Source: a virus. Taken from it: a stretch of DNA of 22,861 nucleotides. Location: the IMG/VR virus record IMGVR_UViG_3300014827_000317, positions 1 to 22,861 of that record; one strand, given 5' to 3'. The position numbers and the translations under genes were made by a program. A model generated the notes under the pieces. The model saw only the letters and a list, made by a program, of their open reading frames with translations, had not been told where the DNA came from and did no database searches. Shown here in pieces: positions 19,900-22,861 of the stretch. The stretch's first letter is position 1; every line of letters starts with the position of its first letter.

Positions 19900-20412
19900 A
19901 TGAAATTAATAGCACAAACATACGTGTCGCCTTTGTTGAGCCAAGGCACGTTCGAAAACGTAACCATCGAAGATGTTTGCTTGACCCATAAAAGACACGA
20001 CAATTACATCGCCATAGGCTTTGAAATGTCATACGTCAAAAACGGTCAAAAGGTTGTTTTAGATACCAAAGAAATGGGTTTCTTGGGTATGGAAAATGAC
20101 GTGGTAAGCTCGAATAGAACTACCACAATGTCTATTCCTAATCCTGATTATGACACACAAATAGAGGGTTCAGAGGAACGAATTACCGTGCCTTTGTTCG
20201 CTTACTTAACGGCCAACAATGGCGTTATGCCTCAAGATTACGAAATGGTAGATTTCGGTTGGCCAACGTATGAAAAGGTAATGCAGTACTTCGAGGGCGG
20301 CACACTCGAAAACCCCGAAATAACCATAAGCGCACCGCTTGCCATTGGGTTCTTGATGAACAATCTTGTTATGAATGGCGAGGCGGTTGGTGTTCAATTT
20401 ACTATGGTATAA
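19900..20412 (+). CDS. Uncharacterised protein after the fibre gene (possible fibre accessory)
   Basis: 170 residues from ATG 19900. An in-frame ATG at 19825 lies inside the fibre gene and would give a C-rich, implausible leader, so 19900 (11 nt after the fibre stop) is preferred. The sequence is acidic and beta-prone: MKLIAQTYVSPLLSQGTFEN, then YIAIGFEMSYVKNGQKVVLD, a mid-part with MSIPNPDYDTQIEGSEERIT and an end LMNNLVMNGEAVGVQFTMV. No signal peptide, no membrane segment, no known motif. Genes in this place often code for fibre chaperones or small virion proteins. Its stop overlaps the next ATG (TAATG). Confidence 0.6.
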   Translation: MKLIAQTYVSPLLSQGTFENVTIEDVCLTHKRHDNYIAIGFEMSYVKNGQKVVLDTKEMGFLGMENDVVSSNRTTTMSIPNPDYDTQIEGSEERITVPLFAYLTANNGVMPQDYEMVDFGWPTYEKVMQYFEGGTLENPEITISAPLAIGFLMNNLVMNGEAVGVQFTMV

Positions 20413-20783
20413 TGGGTACGGCTTTAGCAATTGCGGCCTTGATTCTTTCGGCTATTCTTTTTCCTTTAGGGTTGCTTTTGACGTTTTTTGTCAACCTGTA
20501 CAAAAGGCGTTGGAGTTTTTCATTTAAGCGATTAGACCAGCAATTTTTGAGCATTGCCACCAGTATAGATGCATCCGGTAACGTGGTGTGTAAAGATTTG
20601 TTTAACCTGATTTTAAAACAGAAAGGAGGTGTTGAATTCGGGAATAGGAAAGAAACTATTTCGAGCGTATTGGGTAAAAATAAGCGTGATGGAACGCTAA
20701 CAAAAACAGGAAAAAGAGTTGCTTTTATCCTGGACAAAATAGATCCAAATCATTGTTTGAAAAGCATTGATAGTTTAGCGTAG
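20412..20783 (+). CDS. Small membrane-anchored protein of unknown function
   Basis: 123 residues. Residues 3-28 (ALAIAALILSAILFPLGLLL and on) form one long hydrophobic helix, possibly a hairpin at the Pro-Leu-Gly, followed by positive residues (YKRRW), which predicts a cytoplasmic C-terminal part. That part has FKRLDQQFLSIATSIDASGN, VVCKDLFNLIL, then FGNRKETISSVLGKNKRDGT and LDKIDPNHCLKSID. I recall the G-N-x-x-x-x-x-L-F-N ... F-G-N-x-x-E-T-I-S-S-V-L-G-K-N pattern from many Bacteroidota prophages with no known role. It is translationally coupled to the previous gene and is the last gene before the structured intergenic region, hence the end of the tail operon. Confidence 0.65.
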   Translation: MGTALAIAALILSAILFPLGLLLTFFVNLYKRRWSFSFKRLDQQFLSIATSIDASGNVVCKDLFNLILKQKGGVEFGNRKETISSVLGKNKRDGTLTKTGKRVAFILDKIDPNHCLKSIDSLA

Positions 20784-20811
20784 TTCCAAGGGAGGTGGGA
20801 AGTAAAAAATA

Positions 20812-20927
20812 GTCCTCCAACTTTTAAAAACTTTCTGAGGGATTTTAAATATAGCAACAAAGCCACACCGTTGGAGGACATAAGTCTTCTATGGTGTGGC
20901 TTTGCTATTTTTAATATAATCCCTCAG
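20812..20927 (+). ncRNA. Structured intergenic element with crossing (pseudoknot-type) complementarity
   Basis: Three perfect or near-perfect complementary pairs are found. A: GTCCTCCAAC (20812-20821) with GTTGGAGGAC (20870-20879). B: CTGAGGGATT (20835-20844) with AATCCCTCAG (20918-20927). C: CAAAGCCACACC (20858-20869) with GGTGTGGCTTTG (20893-20904), continued by ATAG/CTAT around a CAA bulge. B and C make one long hairpin whose 23-nt loop (20870-20892) starts with the partner of A, so A pairs with the loop of the hairpin. The C stem followed by CTATTTTT also looks like an intrinsic terminator for the tail operon. Whether it is a cis-regulator of the following module, a separate RNA, or a DNA site cannot be decided from sequence. 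The rest of 20784-20956 shows nothing else clear. Confidence 0.6.
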
Positions 20928-20956
20928 AGATACAAAAGTAACTTAAATTTATAGAT

Positions 20957-21085
20957 ATGGCAAAAGAATTTTTATACAAACAGCAGTACGGCGTGATTGT
21001 TATTTGTGAAAACGAGGACGAACAAAAGAAAGTTTTTGAGGAACTCCAAAAAAAAGGTATGAAATTAAAAGTAGTAACAACGTGA
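20957..21085 (+). CDS. 42-residue protein at the head of the ATPase-GNAT-formyltransferase module
   Basis: ATG 20957 to TGA 21083-21085, product begins MAKEFLYKQQYGVIVICENE and ends KKGMKLKVVTT. The order strand (YGVIVICEN), helix (EDEQKKVFEELQKKG), strand (MKLKVVTT) gives a small beta-alpha-beta unit. Its stop overlaps the GTG of the ATPase gene (GTGA), so the two are translationally coupled. It begins 29 nt after the structured element. By position it recalls Com, the small translational activator encoded upstream of mom in phage Mu, but it has a single Cys and no zinc-finger pattern, so it is not a Com homologue. Function unknown. Confidence 0.7.
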   Translation: MAKEFLYKQQYGVIVICENEDEQKKVFEELQKKGMKLKVVTT

Positions 21086-21777
21086 AAATAGTAGTAGAAA
21101 ACAGCACGCGAAACTTTGAAAGTTATCGTGCGCAAAGAGTAAAATCATTGTTTAATGCCGAGGACGGCTCAAGCTTCAAGACTGAGGCCAATATTGATAT
21201 TGATGATTTGGATTGGGGCATTGGGCTAATTGTTGGCGCATCCGGTTCCGGTAAGACCTCGATAGGTAAACAGTTTTTTGGGGAGAATAAAATTCACGAT
21301 TTATATGCGGGTTGGGATTGCTCCAAGCCTATTATAGACTGCATTTTACCTGATGGCGATTTCAACACGGCCACCGGAGCATTGGCCGCCGTAGGTCTTG
21401 GTGATGTGCCTAGTTGGTTGCGGCCATTTAACGCATTATCGAACGGCCAACAGTTTAGAGCGGGATTAGCCCGGTTAGTTACCGAAGCGCCAAACGAGGC
21501 AGTTGTTGATGAATTCACAAGCGTAGTAGATAGACAAATTGCGAAAATTGGGGCGTTGGCTTTCGCCAAGAACTGGCGAAGGAATAAGGGAAAGAAAGTG
21601 GTTTTGTTATCGTGCCACTATGATATTATTGAGTGGTTGCAACCGGACTGGGTATATGATGTAAATACCAAAGTATTAAAAAAAAAATTGAAATCGGGAA
21701 ACGGCCAGACATCAAACTTGAAGTTTGGAAGGTCAACGGAACTTACTGGAAGTTGTTTAAAGGGCATTATTATTTAG
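21082..21777 (+). CDS. ABC-class ATPase domain, probably the N-terminal half of an ATPase-GNAT protein
   Basis: 231 residues from GTG 21082. All ABC ATPase motifs are visible in order: Walker A GASGSGKTS (52-60), signature LSNGQQ (119-124), Walker B with catalytic Glu VVDEF (141-145), D-loop SVVD (147-150) and H-loop His 179 in LLSCHYDIIEW. There is no transmembrane partner gene and no membrane segment, so it is not a transporter; soluble ABC ATPases of this kind work on DNA or RNA. The core ends at about residue 200 in a run of Lys codons (A10 at 21678-21687). The 30 residues after it (LKSGNGQTSNLKFGRSTELT and on) look like out-of-frame noise, while the -1 frame continues with protein-like sequence into the GNAT domain. 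Likely made as a short and a fused form. Confidence 0.85.
   Translation: MKIVVENSTRNFESYRAQRVKSLFNAEDGSSFKTEANIDIDDLDWGIGLIVGASGSGKTSIGKQFFGENKIHDLYAGWDCSKPIIDCILPDGDFNTATGALAAVGLGDVPSWLRPFNALSNGQQFRAGLARLVTEAPNEAVVDEFTSVVDRQIAKIGALAFAKNWRRNKGKKVVLLSCHYDIIEWLQPDWVYDVNTKVLKKKLKSGNGQTSNLKFGRSTELTGSCLKGIII
21678..21687 (+). promoter_or_regulatory. A10 slippage site joining the ATPase and GNAT frames
   Basis: Zero-frame codons are TTA AAA AAA AAA TTG (21676-21690), which contain A AAA AAA, a canonical -1 slippery heptamer. The -1 frame is open from 21660 (after TGA 21657-21659) to 22205. A shift gives ...VLKKK then IEIGKRPDIKLEVWKVNG and TYWKLFKGHYYL, total about 374 residues. A run of ten A also allows RNA polymerase slippage, and a real or sequencing indel is possible. 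Confidence 0.6.
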
Positions 21778-22205
21778 ATCTTCCACACCCACCGGCAGCG
21801 GAGTATTTTGTTGGCGTTGTAGGTGGGGAACTTGTGGCGCACGTTGCAGTTTGTCCAATGTTTACAGCCAATGCCTATCGTGCAACTCGTTTGGTAGTAA
21901 TGCCGGAGTGGCAAGGTGCCGGTGTTGGAACTGCATTTTTAAATGAGGTTATGCAATACCACCTCGAAGGTAACGGCCGATGCCAAAGAAAATATCACAC
22001 GTTCTTTCATACTTCGCACCCGCAATTGTGCGGTTATTTGCGAAATGCTGATGTTTGGAAACAAACTAACGCCATTCTTTACGGTGCGAATAAGTCAAGG
22101 AGCAACGCCAGTATTACCAAGACTGGCAAAAAAGGAGGTATTACCGGCTGTGGTTACGGCGGCCACTTCAGGGCGGTTCAAAGTTTTAAATATTTAGGAA
22201 AATGA
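21753..22205 (+). CDS. GNAT acyltransferase, Mom-like, probably the C-terminal half of the ATPase-GNAT protein
   Basis: The first ATG of the frame gives 150 residues, but about 25 protein-like residues precede it in the same frame (IEIGKRPDIKLEVWKVNG, TYWKLF), so the ATG at 21753 probably lies inside the domain. The acetyl-CoA site is clear: RLVVMPEWQGAGVGTAFLNE (46-65), the V-x-P-x-x-Q-G-x-G-x-G motif A of GNAT proteins. GHYYL near the start, with a His-Tyr pair, and the closing FRAVQSFKYLGK are features I associate with phage GNATs related to Mu Mom, which turns adenine in DNA into a carbamoylmethyl form. The ATG of the formyltransferase gene overlaps its stop (ATGA). Substrate (DNA base or other) is inferred, not shown. 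Confidence 0.78.
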   Translation: MFKGHYYLDLPHPPAAEYFVGVVGGELVAHVAVCPMFTANAYRATRLVVMPEWQGAGVGTAFLNEVMQYHLEGNGRCQRKYHTFFHTSHPQLCGYLRNADVWKQTNAILYGANKSRSNASITKTGKKGGITGCGYGGHFRAVQSFKYLGK

Positions 22206-22861
22206 AAAAATTAAGAGTTTTTATAAGTGGTACAAAGTATTTTGGCCAAGAGGTGTTCAGGCTATGCAATAGTTTGGAGTTTGTTGAGATTGTGGGCGTT
22301 TGCACTCCGCTTGGCGACAGGCACATGATGAAAATGGCGCAGCTGTTCGATGTTCCCGTTGTACCCGGTGGCACGTTAAAGGAGGACACGTTGCCCGATA
22401 ATATTGATTTGGGTATAACTGCGCATTCGTTTGATTATATTGGCACAAAGACGCGATATAAGGCTAATATTGGTTGGATAGGTTATCATCCAAGTTTGTT
22501 GCCCCGGCATCGTGGCCGCTCTTCCATTGAGTGGGCGGTTCGTATGCGTGACGCTATTACAGGCGGCACGGTGTTCTGGCTTAACTCTGGGATAGATCGT
22601 GGCGATATAGCGTACCAGGATATATGTTTCATTGACCCGAAAATGTACGGAATGGAGCCACGTAAGGCAGCAAAGTTATTGTGGGAACACGAATTACAAC
22701 CAATGGGCTTACGGTTGCTAGAAAAGGCTATTTGTGACATACACGCGGGTATCATTATCAAGAACCCACAGCAAAAGGAATACAGCACGTTTGAGCCTAA
22801 CACGGACGGCAAGGATATATTTAAACCTGATTTGTTGATGTTGGGGAGTGGGAGTGATTAA
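22202..22861 (+). CDS. Formyltransferase-like protein (methionyl-tRNA/GART formyltransferase fold)
   Basis: 219 residues ending at TAA at the window edge. Rossmann start LRVFISGTKYFGQEVFR (4-20), then GITAHSFDYI (71-80), and the folate-site loop GYHPSLLPRHRGRSSIEWAV (94-113), followed by TGGTVFWLNSGIDRGDI (120-136). H96, the S-L-L-P loop and D132 agree with the N10-formyltetrahydrofolate formyltransferase family. The Asn that normally stands two residues before the His is Gly 94 here, so the usual N-H-D triad is incomplete. At 219 residues it lacks the C-terminal tRNA-binding domain of Fmt, so it is not the host initiator-tRNA enzyme. Its ATGA overlap with the GNAT gene ties it to the module. 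A small-molecule, sugar or modified-base substrate is possible. Confidence 0.82.
   Translation: MKKLRVFISGTKYFGQEVFRLCNSLEFVEIVGVCTPLGDRHMMKMAQLFDVPVVPGGTLKEDTLPDNIDLGITAHSFDYIGTKTRYKANIGWIGYHPSLLPRHRGRSSIEWAVRMRDAITGGTVFWLNSGIDRGDIAYQDICFIDPKMYGMEPRKAAKLLWEHELQPMGLRLLEKAICDIHAGIIIKNPQQKEYSTFEPNTDGKDIFKPDLLMLGSGSD

Follow-up and report, generated by a model that had tools for sequence, protein, structure and literature searches.

A conserved folded element lies between the last late gene and the DNA-modification module of a Mu-like phage, at positions 20784-20940 of a 22,861-nt IMG/VR virus record that encodes a Mu-type portal protein (PF06074); the whole record is referred to below as the window. 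The folded element pointed out in an earlier sequence-only reading of this DNA is confirmed as real, and it extends far past the window, to phages of two Bacteroidota classes. With moderate confidence, and from sequence comparison, we favor its interpretation as a cis-acting switch in which a sense leader and an antisense RNA would together time the expression of modification genes in Mu-like Bacteroidota phages. DNA-modification genes shield phages from restriction, yet they need correct timing, and in the open-licence literature we found no account of that timing in Bacteroidota transposable phages, including the abundant gut hankyphage. If the interpretation is true, the question of timing would have a general solution in one conserved RNA element that precedes modification genes from several unrelated families, and a phylum with few characterised RNA regulators would possess a compact, covarying sense/antisense switch.

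The positions of the individual features are collected in Table 1. The sequence-only reading had described complementary segments at 20812-20927, running A, B, C, A', C', B', and all of them are found there; the perfect complementarity of A to the first 10 nt of the hairpin loop (that is, A') is borne out as well, while the linker between A and B measures 12 nt instead of 13. Segments E and A'', the A-run at 20804-20809 and the minus-strand promoter at 20933-20963 had been overlooked. The plus strand folds with an energy of -59.3 kcal/mol (z -10.35), and no shuffled sequence did as well. For the small D hairpin, the stem scores are 10.9 versus 6.9 and 10.6 versus 7.2 for real versus shuffled arms in the two classes. 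AT-rich complementary segments, F and F', also occur on either side of B in both classes (window 20822-20850) and might display B in the loop of a small hairpin; we do not claim this pairing, as the wobble counts are confounded by base composition.

Table 1. Features of the element and its neighboring genes, in window coordinates
Feature	Position	Strand	Remarks
Last late-operon ORF	20412..20783	+	123 aa, P0002, function unassigned; stop codon 20781-20783, 7 nt ahead of E
D hairpin (TTCC/GGAA), small, with E in loop	20784..20801	+	Stem score above that of shuffled arms in both classes
E (GGAGG)	20791..20795	+	Complement of A, which it precedes; GGGGG where A is CCCCC
A-run on plus strand, equal to minus-strand U-tract directly past A segment	20804..20809	-	Predicted 3' end of antisense RNA
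A GTCCTCCAAC	20812..20821	+	Pairs with A' or E
B TCTGAGGGATT, 5' arm of outer stem	20834..20844	+	Arm-swap comparison
C GCCACACC, 5' arm of inner stem	20862..20869; stem reaches 20859 (20859..20869)	+	Arm-swap comparison
A' GTTGGAGGAC	20870..20879	+	Perfect complement of A; partner of A or A''
A'' (GTCTTCT)	20884..20890	+	Weaker competitor of A for A', G-U pairs included
C' GGTGTGGC, 3' arm of inner stem	20893..20900 (arm 20893..20903)	+	Folding, arm-swap comparison
B' AATCCCTCAGA, 3' arm of outer stem	20918..20928	+	Outer end is predicted minus-strand start site
-7 box TACTTTTG (TAnnTTTG)	20933..20940	-	Box in 131/140 relatives
-33 box TTG	20961..20963	-	20 nt upstream of -7 box
Predicted antisense RNA, ~125 nt	20804..20928	-	Predicted from promoter offset and U-tract
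P0001 ORF, 42 aa, phrog_28816	20957..21085	+	Heads module
phrog_11143, ATPase part (ABC_tran match)	21082..21777	+	
phrog_11143, GNAT acetyltransferase part	21753..22205	+	
Formyltransferase PF00551, phrog_9240	22202..22861	+	

Relatives were collected with the pattern GTCCTCC..GGAGGAC..GTCTTCT, which returned 114 viral stretches and many Flavobacteriia genomes. Of 237 pattern matches, the 75 in GC-rich genomes (Streptomyces, for example) resemble chance matches and were removed; the search yielded 140 distinct AT-rich elements, with more than 130 distinct relatives in Flavobacteriia phages. The pattern fixes the A/A' core, and in the Flavobacteriia, but not in the Bacteroidia, it also imposes the GTCTTCT form of A''. 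Because the core is fixed in this way, additional sampling free of the core was anchored on thymidylate synthase, phrog_11143 and Mom proteins. A core-blind descriptor placed the element upstream of the gene at 52 of 80 thymidylate synthase, 31 of 80 phrog_11143 and 16 of 80 Mom loci, compared with 0-1 of 80 shuffled sequences and 1-3 matches in downstream controls. Each of the upstream ORF's five nearest relatives is followed by the same element with altered stems, and behind it two of the five carry a different module.

Bacteroidia phages, hankyphage included, share the architecture with a different sequence: at most thymidylate synthase loci, A is GCCCCCGG and A' is CCGGGGGC. In hankyphage p00 (reached via the thymidylate synthase protein rather than by a DNA match), the element occupies about 40,527-40,699 of BK010646 and is followed by a small ORF labelled Mor-like in a relative and by the genes for thymidylate synthase and a D12 N6-adenine methyltransferase. 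The ORF right behind the hankyphage element (L258 3210-3452) has a Mor transcription-activator domain annotated in BX-TP1, and its only Pfam match is a sub-threshold one to ArgoMid. Further instances are found in the inducible Winoviridae phage fF4 and in P. gingivalis phages carrying a Mom gene. Neither the fF4 nor the hankyphage record annotates anything over the element. Searching the window with the Rfam 15 covariance models at the gathering score gave no matches, nor did searching the element from eight sources at a relaxed threshold (E<=1); the Rfam search was judged to be working, since RT-3 was recovered elsewhere in hankyphage. Querying phage records at the DNA level with the element of the window likewise gave no matches, and no description of the element was found in the open-licence papers searched.

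Covariation supports the pairing of the segments. Position 8 of A:A' is paired in 104 of 107 Flavobacteriia elements, with interchange of A-T and G-C (the shuffle mean is 54), and in 41 Bacteroidia elements positions 2, 5 and 7 differ from the Flavobacteriia form on both sides, the core changing from GTCCTCC to GCCCCCGG. Independent counts of A:A' with slide and shuffle controls are in agreement. With the pairing so well kept in one class and the core replaced on both sides in the other, the element is not a product of chance. Shuffles and relatives thus bear out the suggestion of the sequence-only reading that the complementarity is unlikely by chance, and the compensatory A/A' changes in homologous loci, which it had named as its own refutation test, are present. 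The two stems also covary: the B arms form 8.67 of 9 Watson-Crick pairs with their own partner versus 3.27 when swapped between elements, and the C arms 7.88 of 8 versus 3.25. RNAalifold run on an alignment shows A:A' only, since the B and C arms, being variable, fall out of register, and the arms were therefore compared element by element.

E and A'' vary in parallel with the core, from GGAGG to GGGGG and from GTCTTCT to CCCTCT or GCCCTTT, respectively; in one relative (L355), A, A' and A'' are all altered together. As predicted pairing segments, E, A, A' and A'' stand in an attenuator-like order. Of the alternative states proposed earlier, A:A' is supported, and the set was incomplete in that E:A and A':A'' had been missed. 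The calculated duplex energies suggest that the A:A' state and the E:A plus A':A'' state are similar in energy: in the Flavobacteriia, -16.8 kcal/mol for A:A' stands against -10.8 for E:A plus -10.0 for A':A'' (medians for A:A' and A':A''), and in the Bacteroidia the values are -19.3 versus -14.5 plus -12.4. The preference for wobble G-T over A-C is 146:35 in the Flavobacteriia, favoring the plus strand, 14:75 in the Bacteroidia, favoring the minus strand, and 10:8 in close pairs, favoring neither; because the counts contradict each other between classes and are neutral in close pairs, they were not used for strand assignment. A natural loss of A:A' is provided by P. gingivalis phage008a (L506, BK068090), whose C-hairpin loop, at 900-1100, has flipped between inverted repeats of 36 nt and is a copy of A rather than its complement; this phage is a useful control.

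The opposite strand carries a second conserved signal. Directly past B', CAAAnnTA on the plus strand (TAnnTTTG on the minus strand) is present in 131 of the 140 relatives, and the other nine are mostly near-variants or chance pattern matches. The box lies 30-46 nt past A'' in nearly all relatives, with a gap of 0-4 nt between B' and the box, and in the Flavobacteriia relatives TTK (-33) peaks at a spacing of 19-21 from the -7 box. These minus-strand boxes agree with the published sigma-A consensus and are predicted to be a canonical host-type promoter of Bacteroidota. In the Bacteroidota sigma-A signal, the box is at -12 to -5 relative to the start site (PMC9723704), and this offset puts the predicted +1 at 20928, the outer end of B'. 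At the other end of the element, an A-run of at least four on the plus strand just ahead of A is found in 98% of Flavobacteriia and 93% of Bacteroidia elements. The promoter and this minus-strand U-tract together predict a discrete antisense RNA of ~125 nt, from 20928 to 20804, with a fold of -50.9 kcal/mol (z -7.73). On PV107405.1, the corresponding hankyphage antisense RNA is predicted as the complement of about 40550-40681, with its 5' end at 40681 +/- 2.

Modification genes follow nearly all Flavobacteriia elements. Among the Flavobacteriia elements that are informative (promoter-like box present and enough sequence, n=131), 129 have a modification gene within about 420 nt downstream on the plus strand, and the earlier notion of a switchable-looking element ahead of a modification module holds across the relatives. 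At least five unrelated families are represented downstream: thymidylate synthase and/or D12 N6-methyltransferase, the phrog_11143 module, Mom, C5-methyltransferase and N6/N4-methyltransferase. Thymidylate synthase is counted as a probable member of the modification module because it is frequently paired with a methyltransferase. In three relatives (L038, L059 and L111), the element and an N6/N4-methyltransferase gene are located ahead of the terminase genes and not at the right end; the element thus travels with the module to another genome position, which favors cis control of the module. The phrog_11143 protein is encoded by two overlapping ORFs (ATPase and GNAT) at window 21082-22205 and by a single ORF in P. 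gingivalis phage008a. The small ORF heading this module (window 20957-21085; L506 1176-1304) is labelled 'acr candidate' in P. gingivalis phages.

Control of read-through into the module, also suggested in the sequence-only reading, is supported in part. Runs of at least five T past C' occur in 31% of Flavobacteriia and 56% of Bacteroidia elements, and no consensus terminator was called in the window; a plus-strand terminator is plausible and would be weak in many members. Formation of A:A' need not block termination, since C:C' can coexist with A:A' as a pseudoknot. The distance from the upstream stop codon to E in the relatives has a median of 12 nt and is <=15 nt in 65%, >20 nt in about a quarter and more than about 80 nt in 10%. 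With about a quarter of the E segments >20 nt from the stop codon, control by the terminating ribosome is not general, and these distances rule out a ribosome-covered E as the general trigger; translation of the upstream gene may contribute to control in some members.

In the switch that we favor, late plus-strand transcription would produce a leader with E, A, A' and A'' in attenuator order. This leader could adopt one state in which E:A forms together with A':A'' inside the C hairpin, or another in which A pairs with A' and A' is withdrawn from A''. From the opposite side, the host-type promoter adjoining B' would produce an antisense RNA of ~110-130 nt. This RNA would begin at the outer edge of the B stem, fold into the same two stems and end at the U-tract past its own A':A helix; by pairing with the leader as it emerges, it would tilt the choice of fold. 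We infer that both RNAs are made and that the states interchange in vivo, as well as the direction of control: most probably, expression of the modification gene would be kept down in the lysogen or in early infection, until late transcription outpaces the antisense RNA. The conflicting wobble counts, the weak plus-strand terminator of many elements, the possible coexistence of C:C' with A:A' and the loss of A:A' in L506 weigh against this switch. Tentatively, the element may represent a new class of phage regulatory RNA, found in two Bacteroidota classes and dedicated to DNA-modification genes, in which the A:A' helix would serve both strands, ending the antisense RNA and forming the alternative state of the sense leader, and so lock the two foldings together.

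Other readings account for parts of this arrangement. The minus-strand transcript could be an independent, trans-acting small RNA, with the adjoining modification gene incidental. Other RNAs of the phage or host would then be the partners of its GUCCUCC/GCCCCCGG loop, which the transcript's own 3' end would close. A promoter, a start at the stem and a U-tract do amount to a full small-RNA gene, and the Bacteroidia wobble pattern favors the minus-strand fold, but the element accompanies unrelated modification genes at differing genome positions, and E and the G-U-paired A'' are meaningful on the plus strand only; we consider this reading unlikely. Somewhat harder to credit is plus-strand attenuation without an antisense role, in which the ribosome ending the last late gene would cover E, leaving A free for A' and opening read-through, and the minus-strand promoter would be unrelated or minor. 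Its appeal lies in the proximity of E to the upstream stop codon in 65% of relatives (<=15 nt), the match of the E-A-A'-A'' order to classical attenuators and the Flavobacteriia wobble pattern; the 10% with distances above about 80 nt weigh against it, and the near-universal promoter is left unexplained.

The near-universal promoter also bears on whether the hairpin is a bidirectional terminator and insulator that does no more than keep late operon and module apart and stop convergent transcription. Such a function would suit a long GC-rich hairpin with an A-run ahead of A and T-runs past C', but compensatory changes in A:A' and E would be superfluous for it, as would a promoter in a fixed position beside the stem, and we regard it as improbable. 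A hairpin site acting at the DNA level (single-strand or cruciform), for exchange of the modification cassette or for a recombinase, would fit the differing cassettes behind the same element and the loop inversion of L506. No associated recombinase was noticed, however, and no second copy of the element was found within the record, where one might flank the cassette; the promoter and U-tract would be unexplained, and this reading is very improbable. We also weighed hairpins of the attC or IS200 type and a plain terminator, and adopted none of them. A type III toxin-antitoxin RNA was rejected because the element is single, without tandem pseudoknot repeats, and has modification genes downstream.

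The sense/antisense switch can be compared with several known systems. Judging by its sequence, the element would work like the pT181, IncI and Bacteroides cis-antisense systems, without being classed as a member of any. In trp-type attenuators, four segments form mutually exclusive 1:2, 2:3 and 3:4 pairings; the four-segment order and mutually exclusive pairings are similar here, but there is no leader peptide with control codons and the terminator is not consistently strong. In pT181, the leader ahead of the gene has competing pairings, and its folding is biased by an antisense RNA transcribed from the other strand (PMC4878617). Both properties recur here as predicted from sequence: the -7 and -33 boxes place a putative antisense promoter opposite the leader, and the mutually exclusive pairings E:A, A:A' and A':A'' covary between classes. 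The present leader, however, belongs to a phage late operon, the predicted antisense RNA covers the entire hairpin, with the putative terminator inside it, and there are an additional segment E, a pseudoknot geometry and a terminator that is weak in many members. The IncI-type repZ/repA leader with Inc RNA/RNAI makes a pseudoknot by pairing the loop of a hairpin with a segment some distance away, and its antisense RNA extends over that hairpin; both are predicted here. The IncI pseudoknot segment is beside the ribosome-binding site; in the window, A is upstream of the hairpin and away from that site: about 135 nt, with the hairpin in between, separate its end from the downstream ATG at 20957, and no leader peptide is shown.

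Cis-antisense RNAs of the DonS type in Bacteroides are 78-128 nt long and act negatively on the opposite gene (PMC7366714). The predicted ~125-nt RNA falls in this size range; the DonS-type targets are susC homologues of polysaccharide loci, and the likeness is one of description. Mu com/mom likewise has a DNA-modification gene at the right end that is expressed late and under tight control, with the difference that Mu uses a protein translational activator in place of the RNA pairing proposed here. No Com-like translational activator was recognised in the window module, the first ORF of which (42 aa) has no Pfam match, and the gene downstream is the phrog_11143 GNAT module rather than Mom. 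The parallel with Mu mom drawn in the sequence-only reading is nonetheless reasonable, because several relatives of the element sit immediately before a true Mom gene (PF25680).
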